DNA of 47,981 bases from Salibacterium aidingense DSM 18341 (lineage in GTDB: Bacteria > Bacillota > Bacilli > Bacillales > Marinococcaceae): positions 1-47,981 of the forward strand of contig NZ_AUCI01000025.1 of the NCBI RefSeq assembly GCF_000429685.1, written 5' to 3'. A model generated the notes under the pieces. That model searched no databases. It was not told the DNA's origin and saw only the letters and a program-made list of their open reading frames with translations. Of this stretch, positions 4,707 to 47,981 are shown piece by piece (within the stretch, counting starts at the first letter, position 1; the number at the start of each line of letters is the position of its first letter). Both the position numbers and the translations under genes were made by a program.

Positions 4707-4759
4707 CAAATACGTTAATAAACAAACAAAAGGAGGAAAAGAAAATAACACAACAATCC

Positions 4760-5422
4760 ATGAGAAGTAATGGCTACAGCGCCATTAAAGACCAAATTAT
4801 TAAACTAGAGCTGAGACCTGGTCAAAAAATTACAGAGAACGAATTGGCAGAACGTTTTCAAGTCAGCAGAACTCCCATTCGTGAAGCTATTAGCCGTTTA
4901 TCTCAAGAAGGACTGATTGATGTATATCCTCAGAGAGGGACATTTGTTTCCTTAATTGATGAAGAGCACGTCGAAGAAGGACGTTTTATGAGAGAGCATA
5001 TGGAAATCGCCGTCGTGAAGCTAGCATGTAAAAAGCTTTCTGCGACCGAATTACAGGATCTTTCAGAAAATCTGTTATTGCAGGAAATGAGTGTAAAAGA
5101 AAAGAACTATCAAAGAATATTTCAGCTTGATGAGGATTTTCACCGTATTATCTTTGCGGGATGCAAAAAACAACGAACATGGCAATCTGTTCAAAGCATG
5201 ATGGTTAACTTAAATCGAACGAGAATGCTCAGCCTGGCTTCGGAGTATAACTGGGAAATGATTTTAGACCAGCATAAAAAGATTTATGAAGCTATTAAAC
5301 AGTGGCAACCGGAAAAAGCTGAATATATTATGCAAGAGCATTTATCCCTCGTTAATATTGATTTAGCCGAATTAAAAGAACGTTATGCCGGTTATTTTCA
5401 GAAGCAGAGTATAAATAAATAG
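4760..5422 (+). CDS. FadR-type (FCD) GntR regulator of uronate genes, copy 1
   Basis: The 220-residue protein has an N-terminal winged helix (about residues 5-67: LAERFQVSRTPIREAISRL, then PQRGTFVSLI) and a C-terminal all-helical FCD ligand domain (about 75-205). It is probably a repressor of uxuAB and the ABC operon, relieved by a uronate intermediate. It has about 89% identity to the second copy at 12567 (24 substitutions in 216 residues by hand count). The ATG at 4760 is 23 bases from the AGGAGG at 4731-4736, too far for normal initiation. An in-frame ATA at 4745 sits 8 bases after it, giving an alternative five-residue extension (see findings). Divergent from uxuA, sharing operators. Confidence 0.88.
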   Translation: MRSNGYSAIKDQIIKLELRPGQKITENELAERFQVSRTPIREAISRLSQEGLIDVYPQRGTFVSLIDEEHVEEGRFMREHMEIAVVKLACKKLSATELQDLSENLLLQEMSVKEKNYQRIFQLDEDFHRIIFAGCKKQRTWQSVQSMMVNLNRTRMLSLASEYNWEMILDQHKKIYEAIKQWQPEKAEYIMQEHLSLVNIDLAELKERYAGYFQKQSINK

Positions 5423-12506: not shown

Positions 12507-12566
12507 CAAATATGTTAATAAACAAACTTCTGAAAAAGGGGGCGGAAGGAAATAGCACAACAATCG

Positions 12567-13217
12567 ATGAGAAGTAATGGTTACAGTGCCATCAAAGACC
12601 AAATCATTAACCTCGAACTCCCTCCCGGCCAGAAAATTACAGAAAATGAATTGGCGGAACGGTTTCAAGTAAGTAGGACACCTATTCGCGAGGCTATTTT
12701 CCGTTTATCTCAGGAAGGGTTGATTGACGTGTACCCTCAAAGAGGAACTTTTGTATCCCTCATTGATGAAGATCACGTCGAAGAAGGACGATTTATGAGA
12801 GAGCATATGGAAATAGCTGTCGTAAAACAGGCCTGTGAGAAACTCTCTGCCACGGCCCTGCAGGCTCTCTCAGAAAACCTGGTGTTACAGGAAATGAGTG
12901 TGAAGGAGAAAAACTATCAAAGAATTTTCCAGCTGGATGAAGATTTTCACCGAATCATCTTTGCGGGATGCAAAAAACAGCGAACATGGCAGTCCGTGCA
13001 AAGCATGATGGTCAATTTAAACCGTACTAGGATGCTGAGTCTTGCTTCGGAATATAACTGGGAAATGATTTTAGGCCAGCACCAGAAGATTTATGAAGCA
13101 ATGAAAAATCAGAAGCATGAAGAAGCGGAACACATTATGAGAGAGCATTTATCGCTGGTGAATATCGATTTGGCAGAGTTAAAAGATCAATATGCGTACT
13201 ATTTTAAGAGGCAGTAA
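12567..13217 (+). CDS. FadR-type (FCD) GntR regulator of uronate genes, copy 2
   Basis: A 216-residue paralogue of the regulator at 4760, with the same winged helix (ERFQVSRTPIREAIFRL) and FCD ligand domain. Most substitutions fall in the last 45 residues, so DNA recognition is probably shared while ligand or partner surface may differ. It has the same start problem: ATG at 12567 has no nearby ribosome binding site, but an in-frame ATA at 12552 (ATA-GCA-CAA-CAA-TCG-ATG) follows a GGGGGCGGAAGGA tract. It is the first gene of the unit gntR2-uronate isomerase-dctPQM, with the isomerase 23 bases downstream. Confidence 0.88.
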   Translation: MRSNGYSAIKDQIINLELPPGQKITENELAERFQVSRTPIREAIFRLSQEGLIDVYPQRGTFVSLIDEDHVEEGRFMREHMEIAVVKQACEKLSATALQALSENLVLQEMSVKEKNYQRIFQLDEDFHRIIFAGCKKQRTWQSVQSMMVNLNRTRMLSLASEYNWEMILGQHQKIYEAMKNQKHEEAEHIMREHLSLVNIDLAELKDQYAYYFKRQ

Positions 13218-40389: not shown

Positions 40390-40953
40390 TTATTCAAGAT
40401 TGGAGTGCCTGGCGAAATAATCGTTATTTGTTTCTGTCCCCGTCTGTTCCTGGGCATAAATGACAAAAGCATCCAGCAGCAGATGCAGGCTTTGGTCAAA
40501 TTGATTTCCAAGCGGCTGTATCGTATCTGGTTCTTCTTTTTTTCTGTATTTGGTAGCGGCGGGGATTTTTATCGTCTCGTTACTGACCTGGGCTAATGGA
40601 GATGCAGGATCCGTCGAAAAAAGCAGGACATAGGCGCCCGTTTCTTTCGCTTTCTCCGCAGCATTTAACAAGCCGGCTGTTTTTCCTGATCCCGACAGAA
40701 CAATCAACGTGTCTCCTTGTTGAATACTCGGAGTAATCGTTTCTCCAACGACGTATACCTCGTATCCGCCATGCATCAGCCGCATGGCAAACATTTTTCC
40801 AGCCAGGCCCGAACGGCCTTCGCCCAGAACAAAAATTCTTCCATTATTATTGAGCTTCTCTGCTGCAGAAGACAACTGCTCCGTATTAATATTTCCTAAG
40901 ACAGTCTGTATTTCGGTGCTTACCTTGTCCAAAATAGACGAGAAGGAGTTCAT
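40390..40953 (-). CDS. hxlB: 6-phospho-3-hexuloisomerase HxlB (SIS domain)
   Basis: A 187-residue SIS-fold isomerase. RIFVLGEGRSGLAGKMFAMRLMH is the HxlB N-terminal signature (phosphosugar loop), then VVGETITPSIQQGDTLIVLSGSGKT and a C-terminal EEPDTIQPLGNQFDQSLHLL. It converts D-arabino-3-hexulose 6-phosphate to fructose 6-phosphate in the ribulose monophosphate pathway. It overlaps hxlA by 4 bases and ends a LacI-controlled TRAP/KdgK operon. Confidence 0.92.
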   Translation of the reverse strand: MNSFSSILDKVSTEIQTVLGNINTEQLSSAAEKLNNNGRIFVLGEGRSGLAGKMFAMRLMHGGYEVYVVGETITPSIQQGDTLIVLSGSGKTAGLLNAAEKAKETGAYVLLFSTDPASPLAQVSNETIKIPAATKYRKKEEPDTIQPLGNQFDQSLHLLLDAFVIYAQEQTGTETNNDYFARHSNLE

Positions 40954-41573
40954 TCTTTCACCAGCCTTTTTATATTTTCTGCAGCTTCTCCCGGCTGATC
41001 CGCCTTGGTAATCGCTCCGCCGATAATAAATACGTCCGGGCGATATGGAAGAAGGTCCGGTATGGTCTTTTCATTAATTCCGCCGGCGACAGCCACGTCC
41101 CAGTGGGAATAATCCTGTAGTACGGAAAAATGTTCCCCCGAGACGCCGCCTTCTGTTTGCATGTCCTTGCCGATATGCAGAGAAACAAGATCTGCGCCAA
41201 GACCATCCAGCTCCGATAATCGTCGGGAATCGTTCACTCCCAGCAAATCGACCATCACTTTTTTATCAGAGACCGAAGCTTCCTCCAGAGCTGCGGTGAT
41301 CGCTGCATCAGCTGAAAAAGCCATCACTGTCGTAATATCCGCTCCCGCATCCAGGGCCTGCCTTGTCTCTGAAGCAGCCGCGTCACAGGTTTTCATATCT
41401 GCCACAATTGTTTTTTCCGGGTAGGCTTCCTTCATATCCCGTACGATCTGCATACCGTATTCCTTGATAACTCCTGTTCCCATTTCAATCCAGTCCATCT
41501 GTTTTTCCACCTGTTCCATCAAAGAAAAACATTCATTTCTGGATAAACGGTCTAATGCTAATTGAAGTTTCAT
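40950..41573 (-). CDS. hxlA: 3-hexulose-6-phosphate synthase HxlA
   Basis: A TIM-barrel enzyme of the orotidine-monophosphate-decarboxylase suprafamily. LQLALDRL, IEMGTGVIKEYG, VADMKTCDAAASE (the DxKxxD motif in hexulose-phosphate synthase form), VSLHIGKDMQ and VAVAGGIN identify it. It condenses formaldehyde and ribulose 5-phosphate, or the reverse. I start at the ATG at 41573 (GAGG 9 bases upstream), not 41582. It follows kdgK by 12 bases. A decarboxylase-type activity (as in UlaD/KGPDC) is possible but the residues look synthase-like. Confidence 0.88.
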   Translation of the reverse strand: MKLQLALDRLSRNECFSLMEQVEKQMDWIEMGTGVIKEYGMQIVRDMKEAYPEKTIVADMKTCDAAASETRQALDAGADITTVMAFSADAAITAALEEASVSDKKVMVDLLGVNDSRRLSELDGLGADLVSLHIGKDMQTEGGVSGEHFSVLQDYSHWDVAVAGGINEKTIPDLLPYRPDVFIIGGAITKADQPGEAAENIKRLVKE

Positions 41574-41585
41574 GCTGATCATCCT

Positions 41586-42536
41586 CTATCTTTCAATATG
41601 TTTTCGTTCGCCCATGGCGGTCTCGACTGCCTCCAGATAGGGGAGCCCCTCATTGTCCCCGGATACTCCTACTACGAGAGCCCCTACCGTGTTCGCAAAC
41701 CGCAGGGAGTGTTCTACGTCAAAACCCTTCAGGAGGGAATATAACAATCCAGCATCAAATCCGTCACCTGCTCCGACGGTGTCCACCACCTTCACTGACT
41801 CAGCTTCCACATGAGTAACCGGCTCTGCCGGGAAGAGTCCGGTGGCTCCGTTTCCGCCTTTTTTCAAGGCGATATAGGAAATACCGTATTGCTGAAACGT
41901 TTGAAGATGCTCTTCATCAGACTGTTCCCCAAATAACAGATCTGCCTCTTCTTTTCCACTCATGATGATATCCACTTCCGGAAGAATGGAAAGCAGTGTG
42001 TCTCTTCCTTCTTCTTCCCTCCACAGTTTCAAACGGATATTGGGGTCCAGCGCGATCAGGACATTGTGCTTTTTAGCCAGTTCAATAGCCCGCCTGATAA
42101 TACTAGGATTCTTTGGAGCCAGGGATAAAAAAACCCCGCTGATATATAAGACTCGAGCCTGTTTAATATAACTTTCCTGCATATCATCTGCCGTGATAGC
42201 TTCTGTCGGGGAAGGGAATCGATAATAAAAGGTGCTGCCAGAGCCATCCTCCATAATCTCTTTTACATTTAATGGAGTACGGTAGTTTTCCAGTAATTTT
42301 GTATGAGAAAGATCGACTCCTTCACCCCTCATATAGTTCAACACATACTGTCCGAATCCATCGTTTCCCAGACGGCTGATCCAGCCAGACCGCAGTCCGA
42401 GTCGTGCACAGCCGATGGCAAGATTTAATTCGGCCCCTCCTATTTTTCTTTCAAATTCATGAGAGAACATGAGAGGGCCTTTGGATTTCGGGTTCATTGT
42501 TATCATTCCATCACCAATTGAAATAACATCGAGCAT
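41586..42536 (-). CDS. kdgK: 2-keto-3-deoxygluconate kinase-like PfkB sugar kinase
   Basis: A 316-residue PfkB-family kinase starting at ATG 42536 (AAGGATGG 7 bases upstream). GAELNLAIGCARLGLRSGWISRLG, ALDPNIRLKLW and the C-terminal VVDTVGAGDGFDAGLL (anion hole and catalytic Asp) fit the KDG kinase group. It would convert 2-keto-3-deoxygluconate from UxuA to KDPG. The operon also carries TRAP transporter genes upstream and hxlAB downstream. No KDPG aldolase gene is seen. Confidence 0.85.
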   Translation of the reverse strand: MLDVISIGDGMITMNPKSKGPLMFSHEFERKIGGAELNLAIGCARLGLRSGWISRLGNDGFGQYVLNYMRGEGVDLSHTKLLENYRTPLNVKEIMEDGSGSTFYYRFPSPTEAITADDMQESYIKQARVLYISGVFLSLAPKNPSIIRRAIELAKKHNVLIALDPNIRLKLWREEEGRDTLLSILPEVDIIMSGKEEADLLFGEQSDEEHLQTFQQYGISYIALKKGGNGATGLFPAEPVTHVEAESVKVVDTVGAGDGFDAGLLYSLLKGFDVEHSLRFANTVGALVVGVSGDNEGLPYLEAVETAMGERKHIER

Positions 42537-42573: not shown

Positions 42574-43854
42574 CTACAAATTAAATGACTCAGGGAGCCA
42601 CATTGCAATCTCCGGGATAAAGGCAATGATGCCTATAACAAGGAGAATCACCGTAATATACGGAATGGTGGCGTAAAACGAGCGTCCAATGGAAATTTCA
42701 GCTATTTTACTGGCCAGCAGCAGACACAATCCATACGGTGGTGTTACTAATCCAACAGCCAGACACATCATGACAATTAAGCCAAAATGTATCGGGTCCA
42801 TCCCTAACTGCGTCGCTGTAGGCAGGACAATCGGGACGAATAAAACAATGGAAGGAATCGTATCCATAAACATTCCTACGAGTAGAAACAGCAATATAAC
42901 AGCAATGACAAACATCCAGTCGAACGGCAGCGCATTGGCAAAAAAGTTTTCAATCGTTCTTGGTACACTATAATAACTGATCAGTCGTCCGAGCGATGTA
43001 GCCGTTGCAAGGGCGAACAGAGTAAGGGAACTCAATTTCAAAGTATCGTAGACAATGCCTGGAATCTCTTTCAATGAAATAGTTCGGTAAATAAAAAAAG
43101 AGAGAACAAAGGCATACAGACAGGCCAAAACGGCTGCTTCTGTCGGTGTCACAATGCCTCCAACAATACCTCCCAGTATAATAAATGGGGTGAGAAGAGG
43201 TGGAATACTCTGAAGACCCTTTACCAAAACCTCTTTTACTTTCAAACGCTGGTATTTTGGATAATTCCGGCGATGGGAAATAACCCCGACTAAGGCCATC
43301 AGCCCAAGGGCAATAGCTGCTCCTGGTATAATGCCTCCTAAGAACATCTTTCCTACAGACACTCCGGCCAGGCTCCCATAGATGACCATCGGAATACTCG
43401 GGGGGATGATCATCCCCATCGTAGAGGAAGCTGCTGTTACCGCTGCAGCGGTTTCTTTATGATAGTTTTCCTTATGCATGCTGGGAATCATAATTTTCCC
43501 GATACCGGCTGTGTCGGCTGTAGAAGCTCCGGAGATTCCCCCGAAAAACATGGAAACCACGATATTGGCATGAGCCAGCCCGCCTCTTATGTGGCCGACA
43601 AGGGCTACGGCAAACTGAACGAGCTTCTCAGAAATTTCCCCGCGGTTCATAATATTAGCTGCAAAGATAAAGAGCGGTACAGCGAGCAGAATAAAAGATT
43701 CCAGTCCGGAAAACATTTGCTGGACTACAGCTTGAAGGGGAATGGCATCCAACAGAAAAAAACCTATATAGCTGACAATGCCAATCACAAATGCTATGGG
43801 AACACCTAGGAACATTAACCCGAAAAATAATAAAACCAAAAATAAGCCGGTCAT
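42574..43854 (-). CDS. dctM: TRAP transporter large permease DctM (second system)
   Basis: A 426-residue multi-helix subunit. The ATG at 43854 (GGAGG 7 bases upstream) gives the normal N-terminus TGLFLVLLFFGLMFLGVPIA; the longer frame runs into dctQ and is not used. GGLAHANIVVSMFFGGISGAST, MIIPPSIPMVIYG and VGLVTPPYGLCLLLASKIAEI are family hallmarks. It overlaps dctQ by 4 bases. Confidence 0.93.
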   Translation of the reverse strand: MTGLFLVLLFFGLMFLGVPIAFVIGIVSYIGFFLLDAIPLQAVVQQMFSGLESFILLAVPLFIFAANIMNRGEISEKLVQFAVALVGHIRGGLAHANIVVSMFFGGISGASTADTAGIGKIMIPSMHKENYHKETAAAVTAASSTMGMIIPPSIPMVIYGSLAGVSVGKMFLGGIIPGAAIALGLMALVGVISHRRNYPKYQRLKVKEVLVKGLQSIPPLLTPFIILGGIVGGIVTPTEAAVLACLYAFVLSFFIYRTISLKEIPGIVYDTLKLSSLTLFALATATSLGRLISYYSVPRTIENFFANALPFDWMFVIAVILLFLLVGMFMDTIPSIVLFVPIVLPTATQLGMDPIHFGLIVMMCLAVGLVTPPYGLCLLLASKIAEISIGRSFYATIPYITVILLVIGIIAFIPEIAMWLPESFNL

Positions 43855-44345
43855 GATGGTTCCTCCTTCTTGTTTTTCCGATACGCCTGAATGTCCTCCA
43901 GCCAATTTTGAAGAGCAAAAAGGATAACACTTACTCCAGCAGCTGGGATGGCGAGCCATGTATACCCCTGCCTTACCTGCGGAAGGTTATTCAGCGTCCA
44001 TCCCCAAAATTGTGTGGTTAACGTGTATCCATCGGTGATCATGACGATTCCAAAACCTATTATCAGAACATGAATCAAGGATTGAACCATCACAAGGGGC
44101 AGCCCTTTCATGTTATCGATCAACAATTCTACCGTAAAATGCCCTTTTTCCCGGACCATGACGGCCGTGCCCAAAAATACCATCCAGATAAAAGCGTAGG
44201 TCGCTATTTCAGAAGCCCACAGTACTTCAATACCGGGAATATATCGGGATGCCACCTGCATCGTGACACACGCAAAAAAAAGGAAGAAAAATAAGGCAGC
44301 CAATCGTAAATATAGCCCTTCTACCAGGGAAACAATCTTCAACAC
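43851..44345 (-). CDS. dctQ: TRAP transporter small permease DctQ (second system)
   Basis: A four-helix small subunit (VASRYIPGIEVLWASEIATY, EKGHFTVELLIDN). I place the start at GTG 44345, 9 bases after AGGAGG, giving 164 residues. The frame extends to 44402 but the ribosome binding site argues against it. It lies between dctP and dctM of the LacI operon. Confidence 0.88.
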   Translation of the reverse strand: MLKIVSLVEGLYLRLAALFFFLFFACVTMQVASRYIPGIEVLWASEIATYAFIWMVFLGTAVMVREKGHFTVELLIDNMKGLPLVMVQSLIHVLIIGFGIVMITDGYTLTTQFWGWTLNNLPQVRQGYTWLAIPAAGVSVILFALQNWLEDIQAYRKNKKEEPS

Positions 44346-44439: not shown

Positions 44440-45480
44440 CTAGTTCTCTTTCATTTCCACGACTTGTTCATATTCTTCTACCAGATCAAGAGATTCCGCA
44501 GCGTTTTCCCGGACCTCCTCGGTTTGTTCAAAAAACGCTTCCTGTTCTACTTCATTAATCTCTACTCCCGCTTCCTCCATCGCTGCTTTCGATTCTTCCG
44601 CCAGTTCCTGATCCGTTTCCCGTTCTGTCTGCGTAGCTTCTTCCGCCGCTGTCATGACTGCTTCCTGCTGGGATTCACTTAATTGATCCATCACCTGGTC
44701 AGACGTAAAGAAAAGACGGGTGGTATAATCATGCTGCGTTAATGATATATTGCTTGCCACTTCATGATGACTAGCTAAATAGATATTAGTGAAATCATTT
44801 TCTGCCGCATCCACCACATTGTTCTGCAGAGCCTGATACATTTCGTCCCATGCTACGCTGGTGGGCTGTGCCCCGAGAGCCTCCCATGTATTAGTGACTA
44901 CAGGGGAATCTTGTGTACGCAGGGACATGCCGTCCAGATCCGATGGGGTTTCAATGGGTTCTGCCCCATAATAATTCCGGACTCCCGCTGTCCAGTAGCC
45001 CAACACATCAAAACTGGTGTTACTTTCAATTTCGTTCGTTAAGGTATCCCCCACCTCTCCATCAATAACGGACTCCCAGTGGTCTCTGCTTTCAAAGAGA
45101 TAAGGCATGGAGAAAAAGTCTACTTCCTGGACGGACTGCGCCATAAATCCCGGTGCAGCGGCAACTAAATCCACAGAACCAGTTTCCAGATTCTGTACAA
45201 GCTCGTCTTCATTTCCTCCCAAATCGCCATTCGTATGCACTTCTACAGTAACGGATCCGTCACTTTCCTCTTCCACTACTTCTTTGAATTTCTCAAAGCC
45301 GGCAGCAAATGCACTCTCAGAATCCAGCTGTGTCGCTGCAATTAAGTTAACCTGATCTTCTGTGCCGTTTCCGCCCTCTGCTTCTCCTTCTGATCCACCG
45401 CTACTGTTTTCATTGCCGCATGCTCCAAACAACAGGACACTTACTGTTAAAAAGGATACTGCCAACCACTTTGTATTCAT
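44440..45480 (-). CDS. dctP: TRAP transporter substrate-binding lipoprotein DctP (second system)
   Basis: A receptor lipoprotein: MNTKWLAVSFLTVSVLLFGA with lipobox Cys21, acidic linker, then VNLIAATQLDSESAFAAGF, EVHTNGDLGGNEDELVQNL, LDGMSLRTQDSPVVTNTWEA, WDEMYQALQNNVVDAAENDF typical of DctP. I use the ATG at 45480, 7 bases after AGGAGG; 45483 is also possible. It follows lacI by 13 bases. Unlike the first dctP it is intact. Confidence 0.93.
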   Translation of the reverse strand: MNTKWLAVSFLTVSVLLFGACGNENSSGGSEGEAEGGNGTEDQVNLIAATQLDSESAFAAGFEKFKEVVEEESDGSVTVEVHTNGDLGGNEDELVQNLETGSVDLVAAAPGFMAQSVQEVDFFSMPYLFESRDHWESVIDGEVGDTLTNEIESNTSFDVLGYWTAGVRNYYGAEPIETPSDLDGMSLRTQDSPVVTNTWEALGAQPTSVAWDEMYQALQNNVVDAAENDFTNIYLASHHEVASNISLTQHDYTTRLFFTSDQVMDQLSESQQEAVMTAAEEATQTERETDQELAEESKAAMEEAGVEINEVEQEAFFEQTEEVRENAAESLDLVEEYEQVVEMKEN

Positions 45481-45493
45481 CATGTTACCTCCT

Positions 45494-46504
45494 TCATCTT
45501 TTATATAGAGAAGATTCACGTATTTTAAGTTTCGGTTCAAATTCCTGCGTTTCTCCTACAGCCTGTTCTGCTTTTCCATTAATCCGCTGAAGTAATAGGT
45601 CTGCTGCTTTCTCTCCCATCTCATATGCAGGCTGTTCCACTGTCGTAATCGCCGGCGTAAAGAACTCTGAGAACTCCACCTCATCAAACGTGATAAGGGC
45701 CAGTTCATCTGGCATCGAGATATTTTGCTGTTTTAAAACCGGCAGAACGCTTTTCAGCACTCTGTCATTCCCGCAAATTACAGCTGTAGGCGGGTCTTTT
45801 GCCTCCAGCATAGCCGAAAATTTATCCTTTAAATGGTTCATATCACCACCGAATACATAGTTTTCCTTTATGCCGGCACCTTTGTCTTCTAACGCTTTGA
45901 CATAGCCCTGATACCGCTCTTTTCTTGTACTTACGGTAAGAGGAGAGCTGATAAATGCTATATTTTCATGATTTTGATCCAGTAAATGCAGCGTCGCTTC
46001 ATAACCGGCTTTTACATTACGCAGAGTCACCGTCGGAACCGAAAGCGTTTCCACTTTTCTGTCCAAAAAGATTAAGGGATACCGCTCTTTTACCAGGTCC
46101 TTATACAGTCCCTCATTTAAACCGGTAGGAATAATAATAAATCCGTCTACCTGCTTCGCTTTCAACATGTCTACATACTTTTTTTCCTTTTCCGGGTCGT
46201 CGTCCGCATTACAAATAATCGTATGGTATTCATATTGATGGCAGATATCTTCAATGCCCCGGGACACCTGTGTGGAAAATCGATGTAAAATGTTCGCCAC
46301 GATAATACCGATGGTCGTTGTTTTTTTCTGCTTTAACCCCCTCGCCACAGCATTTGGCTGATATTCCAAAGAAATAATTGCTTCTTCTATTCTTTTCTTT
46401 GTGTCCTTTCCCATATGTTTGTAGCGGCCGTTCAGAAATTGGGAGACAGTACTTTGAGAAACCGAAGCGAGCTTCGCGACATCCTGGAGTGTTGGTTTTT
46501 TTAT
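45494..46504 (-). CDS. LacI-family regulator of the TRAP/kdgK/hxlAB operon, apparent ATA start
   Basis: The LacI helix-turn-helix (KKPTLQDVAKLASVSQSTVS then QFLNGRYKH) is encoded upstream of the first ATG at 46414. The only plausible initiation codon in frame before the upstream TAG is ATA at 46504, 8 bases after GGAGG, giving 336 residues. The rest is a periplasmic-binding-like domain (TTTIGIIVANILHRF .. TFDEVEFSEFFTPAITTVEQPAY). It is first in the operon, 13 bases before dctP, and likely controls it through the repeats at 46527-46553. Confidence 0.85.
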   Translation of the reverse strand: MKKPTLQDVAKLASVSQSTVSQFLNGRYKHMGKDTKKRIEEAIISLEYQPNAVARGLKQKKTTTIGIIVANILHRFSTQVSRGIEDICHQYEYHTIICNADDDPEKEKKYVDMLKAKQVDGFIIIPTGLNEGLYKDLVKERYPLIFLDRKVETLSVPTVTLRNVKAGYEATLHLLDQNHENIAFISSPLTVSTRKERYQGYVKALEDKGAGIKENYVFGGDMNHLKDKFSAMLEAKDPPTAVICGNDRVLKSVLPVLKQQNISMPDELALITFDEVEFSEFFTPAITTVEQPAYEMGEKAADLLLQRINGKAEQAVGETQEFEPKLKIRESSLYKR

Positions 46505-46526
46505 GACGACCCCCTCCTTCTATTCA

Positions 46527-46553
46527 GTAAATCGTTTTTGTAAATCGTTTTAC
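46527..46553. promoter_or_regulatory. Tandem LacI-type operators
   Basis: GTAAATCGTTTTTG (46527-46540) and GTAAATCGTTTTAC (46540-46553) are two abutting copies, the second with outer arms GTAAA/TTTAC around a central CG as expected for LacI-family operators. They are just upstream of lacI. Confidence 0.6.
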
Positions 46554-46576
46554 TAACCAATTTGACCTCAGTGTAA

Positions 46577-46591
46577 AAGAAAGCGTATACA
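46577..46591. promoter_or_regulatory. CcpA cre-like site before lacI
   Basis: AAGAAAGCGTATACA fits the cre pattern WTGNAANCGNWNNCW with one mismatch. It suggests carbon catabolite repression of the operon. Confidence 0.5.
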
Positions 46592-46654
46592 TTTTTCAAC
46601 CCTTTATTTTAGATTTCTTTTAAAAAAATTGATTTCCATTTAATAACAGGTAAA

Positions 46655-47745: not shown

Positions 47746-47981
47746 ATGAGTCATAGTATAGGACAGAATTGGATCGAAAATCAACTGGATGATATGATAC
47801 GCCCTTTCGTTAAAGAAAAAATGGAAATGATCATGAGAGAGGAAATGGAACAATATTTTGAGGTGGAGCATCCGGAACAAACGTATCAAAAAAATGGGTA
47901 TTATAACCGCAACCTGGATACGAAATACGGGCGAATCTCGGATCTGCAGGTTCCAAGAGACCGGGAGAATCACTTCCAGAC
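47746..47981 (+). CDS. IS256-family (mutator-type) transposase, N-terminal part
   Basis: ATG at 47746 after AAAAGGAGG opens a frame to the window end: SHSIGQNWIENQLDDMIRPF then VKEKMEMIMREEMEQYFEVE. The conserved stretch NGYYNRNLDTKYGRISDLQV then PRDRENHFQ follows. This is the N-terminal signature of IS256/mutator-type transposases (NGY..R...T..G...L.VPRDR). The catalytic DDE residues are beyond the window. Confidence 0.93.
   Translation, partial: MSHSIGQNWIENQLDDMIRPFVKEKMEMIMREEMEQYFEVEHPEQTYQKNGYYNRNLDTKYGRISDLQVPRDRENHFQ

Follow-up and report, generated by a model that had tools for sequence, protein, structure and literature searches.

Structure of the LacI-family gene and its 5' end

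The window, which is the whole 47,981-nucleotide stretch of contig NZ_AUCI01000025.1 from Salibacterium aidingense DSM 18341 analyzed here, carries on its minus strand a LacI-family repressor gene of 336 codons (45494..46504), whose start codon is almost certainly the ATA at 46504. The corresponding open frame spans 46519 to 45494, comprising 341 codons with the stop within these coordinates, and its 5' end reads AAG GAG GGG GTC GTC ATA AAA AAA CCA ACA CTC CAG. The nearest in-frame stop on its 5' side is a TAG at 46522-46520; the preliminary description was right about the stop itself but had placed it at about 46519-46521, good to within one base. On the minus strand, no ATG, GTG, or TTG was found between this TAG and the helix-turn-helix (HTH), and the earliest ATG of the frame is at 46414, which is codon 31 from the ATA, both as previously claimed.

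The ATA (46502..46504, minus strand) lies 8 nt past a GGAGG, again in agreement with the preliminary description. The Shine-Dalgarno (SD) sequence AAGGAGG (46513..46519, minus strand) was predicted to pair with the 3' tail of the 16S rRNA at -18.0 kcal/mol, with an aligned spacing of 7 to the ATA. These duplex energies were computed against an assumed 16S 3' tail sequence, and the limits on SD strength and spacing were our own choice; the codons scored were ATG, GTG, TTG, ATA, ATT, and ATC, with CTG added in one scoring. The ATA was the sole candidate ahead of the HTH with both an SD and an acceptable spacing, while no SD passing the cut-offs was listed at ATG 46414 in the scoring of the window.

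The assignment to the LacI family was based on Pfam and on the relatives of the gene. The stop-to-stop frame contained a complete LacI HTH domain (PF00356, profile positions 1-46 of 46, E-value 5.3e-15, 55.4 bits against a cut-off of 27) at residues 10-56, or codons 5-51 from the ATA, and many residues of this HTH were invariant in an alignment of 14 sequences. As 46414 corresponds to codon 31, a start at this position would remove more than half of the HTH. The C-terminal effector domain is periplasmic-binding-protein-like, with PF13377 and PF00532 both above their cut-offs. The NCBIfam models RbsR, PurR, CcpA, and others matched the protein, none of them above its cut-off. The product is a probable sugar-operon repressor.

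Sequence conservation around the ATA codon

A comparison of the window with S. qingdaonense revealed changes in 17 of the 29 codons from 2 to 30, of which 14 were synonymous, and third positions accounted for 14 of the 19 base changes. Among the 20 codons upstream of the ATA, 18 were changed, 17 of them non-synonymously, although an insertion in one of the leaders would inflate this upstream divergence, as the comparison was ungapped. Between Alkalicoccus saliphilus and Alkalicoccus LCM1.Bin51, codons 2-30 showed seven synonymous changes and one non-synonymous change while the 20 upstream codons were unchanged, and hence the boundary is visible in this pair only as coding-type change after the ATA. 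Since the changes between the window and S. qingdaonense turn codon-like directly after the ATA, the pattern indicates that the HTH is translated, and it contradicts a start at 46414. From these sequence comparisons, we infer that initiation of the LacI-family gene takes place at the AUA, as the preliminary description had suspected.

Distribution of start codons among related genes

An ATA at the same codon was found in S. qingdaonense (L009/L027), Alkalicoccus LCM1.Bin51 (L010/L060), A. saliphilus (L011/L058), and the genomes G509 (L209) and G467 (L205). Identity to the window protein was 79% for S. qingdaonense, the nearest relative found, 55-56% for the two Alkalicoccus, and 50% and 53% for the two genomes that belong to the class but not to the order. 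In the six rows with ATA, SD duplex energies ranged from -12.6 to -18.5 kcal/mol, with a spacing of 7-8. The alignment of orthologues at the start codon, which had been proposed as a check, thus returned ATA rather than ATG in the nearest relative, and ATG at the ATA codon in the sister Alkalicoccus species.

The samples of genomes were drawn from larger groups, and five candidates were scored per genome. Of the 150 loci aligned, 126 were retained after the removal of five duplicates, the truncated L054, L069, and 17 rows below 44% identity, all 17 of which had a canonical codon. L069 (G418:C1:1497-2450), a LacI relative from an incomplete genome, is interrupted in frame by a TAG close to the start and represents either a pseudogene or an error. 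In the tree of 126 rows, a branch with SH-aLRT 88 separated 15 rows from the rest: seven had no canonical start within the SD and spacing limits, seven had ATG, and in L067 an AUU scored far better than the available TTG. Outside this branch, 109 of the 111 rows passed the limits (98 ATG, eight TTG, and three GTG), and the other two had ATG at a spacing of 12 and 15.

A profile search across the class yielded 48 matches in 46 of 398 genomes. The 29 loci read first, besides the window, included nine duplicates of earlier rows and 20 new loci, where AUA was found in two (L209 and L205) and ATG in 18. Of the 18 matches without a locus, three were already covered, and the remaining 15 were read in a later round along with five from earlier searches. 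All of these 20 later-read matches and the fragment L054 had a canonical start, and these 21 were kept outside the tree. The fragments L054 (55% identity) and L346 (52%) might belong to the branch. With the rows of the 126-row tree and the new loci read first taken together, ATG, GTG, or TTG was present in 129 of 129 rows outside the branch, two of them being ATG beyond the spacing limit.

A further tree of 82 rows was constructed with residue 1 excluded and with a midpoint root only, from 14 rows of the branch, the 45 others with the highest similarity, the 20 new rows, and three paralogues. One 16-row branch, with moderate support (UFBoot 93, SH-aLRT 89), contained all ten AUA, AUU, or AUC rows, in each of which the best start was of that class behind a strong SD. 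These comprised AUA in six genomes (L001, which is the window, L027, L058, L060, L205, and L209), AUU in L013, L042, and L067, and AUC in L034; the remaining six rows of the branch had ATG. No AUA, AUU, or AUC start was found among the 66 rows of this tree outside the branch, all of which were canonical. The start class is hence common to several species rather than peculiar to the window. Three of the ten rows are less certain, as each has a canonical alternative, albeit a poorer one: L042 has an ATG two codons upstream at a spacing of 2, L034 has an ATG at codon 6, and L067 has a TTG 13 codons upstream and a GTG within its SD. The start class changed at least four times on the tree, a number as low as which was reached in none of 500 shuffles (shuffled mean 9.7). 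Four changes would correspond to one gain followed by three reversions to ATG, or to several gains.

Alternative explanations for the ATA codon

It is highly likely that the gene encodes a functional, AUA-initiated LacI-family repressor, whose weak codon would throttle its synthesis within the putative operon described below. Several other readings of the same sequence were weighed against this one. ATA differs from ATG by one base and initiation at AUA is rare, so that a sequencing or assembly error at a true ATG might be suspected; it is exceedingly improbable, because the same ATA recurs in other assemblies, namely those of S. qingdaonense, two Alkalicoccus, and two genomes outside the order, amid different sequence. 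A start at ATG 46414, the first canonical codon of the frame, would produce a LacI-like protein without DNA binding that could serve as a sensor or decoy. The missing SD at this position, the mostly synonymous changes in codons 2-30, and the invariant HTH residues all speak against such a protein, which is very unlikely to be the product. Translation could instead enter from further upstream, through another near-cognate codon or a coupled open reading frame (ORF), with the ATA read as isoleucine. The frame is indeed open for five codons before the ATA, and by eye the window leader includes a TTG ORF in another frame whose TAA overlaps the ATA. However, the five open codons are the SD region itself, and the sequence there was not codon-like in the ungapped comparison with S. 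qingdaonense. The TTG was also missing, by eye, from the L009 leader; the ORF was not seen there, and coupling to it was rejected. There is accordingly little to recommend an upstream start, which we regard as highly improbable.

Drift would leave the AUA neutral or decaying: low translation would be tolerable for this regulator, and the codon would have no part in regulation. This reading is consistent with the ATG in six of the 16 branch rows, as either state seems tolerated, and a strong SD could compensate for a slightly harmful start. Nevertheless, AUA, AUU, or AUC occurs at seven places of a single branch (a count that includes the three doubtful rows and takes L034 and L042 together) and in none of the 66 rows elsewhere, and codons 2-30 remain constrained. 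Drift is therefore considered unlikely, and a throttled, AUA-initiated repressor remains the preferred reading.

Downstream genes and leader of the LacI-family gene

Six genes follow the LacI-family gene on the minus strand, all with canonical starts and SD duplexes of -10.5 to -16.1. The first five had their starts assigned by start scoring. The TRAP transporter gene DctP (44440..45480) begins with ATG at 45480, and its SD overlaps the stop codon of LacI. It is followed by the TRAP transporter genes DctQ (43851..44345, probable GTG at 44345) and DctM (42574..43854, probable ATG at 43854) and a PfkB-family sugar kinase gene (41586..42536, probable ATG at 42536), these four being identified by profile. 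The last two encode a 3-hexulose-6-phosphate synthase-like HxlA (HPS; 40950..41573, probable ATG at 41573), with TIGR03128 at 263 bits against a cut-off of 200 and PF00215, and a 6-phospho-3-hexuloisomerase-like HxlB (PHI; 40390..40953), with TIGR03127 at 226 bits against a cut-off of 160 and the SIS domain PF01380. The LacI-family gene and these six genes presumably share one mRNA, and the former would thus head a putative operon that its product probably controls.

The order LacI-DctP-DctQ-DctM-PfkB-HxlA-HxlB was found in nine of the 12 members of the branch that were examined over 8.5-12 kb. In the other three (L230, L234, and L235), PfkB and an aldolase-like ORF come next after LacI, and Pfam identified this ORF as a KDPG/KHG aldolase in L230 and L234. 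In Paenibacillus cl123, HPS- and PHI-like genes are located upstream of LacI. Outside the branch, a regulator with a canonical start also often precedes PfkB-, HPS-, or TRAP-like genes, among the 65 of the 82 rows with more than 200 nt downstream. Gene order alone hence does not explain the weak start, and a binding of the weak start to one operon type was rejected.

The leader includes a putative promoter on the minus strand, with a -35-like hexamer TTGAAA (46594..46599) and a -10-like hexamer TACACT (46570..46575), both by consensus match only. By eye, the L009/L027, L010, and L011 leaders show TTGAAA or TTGATA at a corresponding position. Between the two hexamers lies TGTATACGCTTTCT (46578..46591, minus strand), which resembles the consensus of a CcpA-type cre site; by eye, a cre-like element also seemed present in the leaders of L009, L010, L011, L012, and L014. 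Two operator-like repeats, GTAAAACGATTTAC and AAAAACGATTTACT (46526..46553, minus strand), resemble each other and are putative LacI sites in the gene's own 5' leader, and TAAA-YCGR-TTTA-like palindromes were seen by eye in the leaders of relatives. The LacI protein may thus autoregulate through these palindromes. Folding of the window and S. qingdaonense leaders placed the operator repeats in a hairpin that stops immediately short of the SD. The SD of S. qingdaonense was paired with the bases before the ATA, and in the Alkalicoccus pair the SD bases were partly paired. No folding scheme common to these leaders emerged.

Additional candidate starts in the genome

A scan of the window (47 ORFs) for a strong SD with AUA, AUU, or AUC and no canonical start nearby identified three candidates near 5' ends, the LacI-family gene and two paralogous GntR/FCD regulators, as well as one internal match. 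The same scan over 400 kb (357 ORFs) identified one candidate near an ORF 5' end and 13 internal matches that are probably due to chance. These counts, like those for GntR and SDR genes below, are low, and one such gene was the reason for choosing the window. The 400-kb candidate is an NlpC/P60 hydrolase (L258, from 16442 onward, plus strand) with a signal-peptide-like N-terminus from an ATT behind GGAGG.

The two GntR paralogues (window 4745-5422 and 12552-13217, plus strand) also appear AUA-started, with SD duplexes of -12.2 and -12.1, spacings of 7 and 8, and an ATG after the ATA with four codons between. Their orthologue in G003 has ATA, and those in G019 and G028 carry an ATG in place of the ATA and lack the later ATG, which supports the ATA as the start. 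Among 30 of the 45 GntR matches in the genome, the window pair lacked a good canonical start, L294 had an ATG at a spacing of 12, and on contig C39 an AUU scored better than GTG. The latter is a GntR-type gene (L310/L285, G000:C39, 10826-11473, minus strand), where GAGGTGATGACC precedes the ATT with an SD of -14.6 at a spacing of 7, and both an ATG and a GTG overlap the SD. For SDR genes, no AUA, AUU, or AUC start was found in 30 of the 42 genome matches. One SDR gene (L331, G000:C8:46731-47306, minus strand) has an SD-ATG that seems out of frame with its domain, with an A run between them, suggesting a frameshift or sequencing error. At the edge of the window, an ORF at 47746-47979 (plus strand) runs past the window end and appears to resemble the N-terminus of an IS256-type transposase.

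A CcpN-like ORF is present beside the PF03618 gene on contig C3 of the window's genome. The ccpN-like genes were named by this position, and are presumed to be such. Seven stretches were taken, of which L118 and L120 had no match to the search pattern. The other five (L114-L117 and L119) read GGCGGTGATG ATA ATC GAA in G000-G003 and GGCGGTGATG ACC ATC GAA in L119 (G014). Because their ATG overlaps the SD, these genes may begin at the AUA or AUC. An AUA start for ccpN is published (PMC13009471).

Proposed mechanism and comparison with known systems

In the proposed mechanism, the initiator tRNA would read the AUA at 46504 as formyl-methionine, and the long SD would fix the initiation site and rescue the AUA. 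IF3 discriminates against AUA, AUU, and AUC starts, and would thereby keep initiation inefficient. The repressor would then be scarce relative to the transporter and enzymes encoded by the same mRNA, and its level would be tied to the state of the initiation machinery. Low yield, IF3 dependence, and a benefit of low repressor dosage are each plausible consequences of such a start. The retention of AUA, AUU, or AUC in close relatives suggests that the cell deliberately makes little repressor.

In many bacteria, infC itself starts with AUU, and an ATT was found at this known place in all 12 infC loci examined, including G000-G003, and is presumably the start; 11 of the 12 also carry an ATG 3-4 codons further on. 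Judging by profile match and start place, an altered IF3 was rejected as the cause of the weak start, as infC exceeded the TIGR00168 cut-off and had its usual ATT.

Few bacterial genes with AUA, AUU, or AUC starts are known, and no LacI- or GntR-family gene among them was named in the titles and abstract openings searched, most subscription journals lying outside that search. In this repressor branch, the start class persists while the exact codon varies, ahead of genes that are started normally. More broadly, such starts could be a recurrent, selected throttle on Bacillales transcription repressors, including the LacI branch, the GntR paralogues, and ccpN, that couples dosage to IF3 and growth state; we offer this generalization tentatively, as one that may well not hold. 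If it is true, annotation limited to ATG, GTG, and TTG would miss such regulators, trimming their DNA-binding domains or N-termini; for the LacI regulator, these rules would cut inside the DNA-binding domain. The ATG and AUA sister species of Alkalicoccus provide a natural comparison for asking what reason a cell might have to throttle a repressor of its own.

Discrimination by IF3 is also stated in PMC13009471 (Nat Commun 2026), where the genes treated include infC, ccpN, citZ, and cvfC1. There, the AUA starts of ccpN and infC in Staphylococcus aureus were mapped by Ribo-Ret, and AUA and AUU reporters reached about 10% of AUG in poor medium, with ccpN up to 30% in rich medium. An AUA-started repressor is thus of a kind already known, since CcpN is also a repressor. 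Similar to the LacI-family gene, ccpN of S. aureus and B. subtilis has a conserved AUA start that follows a long SD, and its product acts as a repressor in carbon metabolism (PMC13009471). The window gene is not a ccpN orthologue, being of the LacI type, while CcpN lies outside this family and combines an HTH with CBS, its gene located beside a PF03618 gene. For ccpN, reporters demonstrated initiation strongly reduced relative to AUG (PMC13009471). Unlike in ccpN, the codon in the LacI branch varies among AUA, AUU, AUC, and AUG, and the gene is the first of an operon probably under its control.

The gene is likewise distinct from infC, which is located on contig C9 of G000. Both apparently have a start codon of the class that IF3 discriminates against (AUA for infC in S. 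aureus; PMC13009471), which in infC limits expression. However, infC is regulated by its own product at that codon, while the product of the LacI-family gene is a DNA-binding repressor. In organization, the gene resembles the LacI-family repressors of Bacillales sugar operons, which have the same domain architecture, operator-like leader palindromes, and adjacent transport and catabolic genes, but whose members outside the branch differ from the window gene in starting with ATG, GTG, or TTG.
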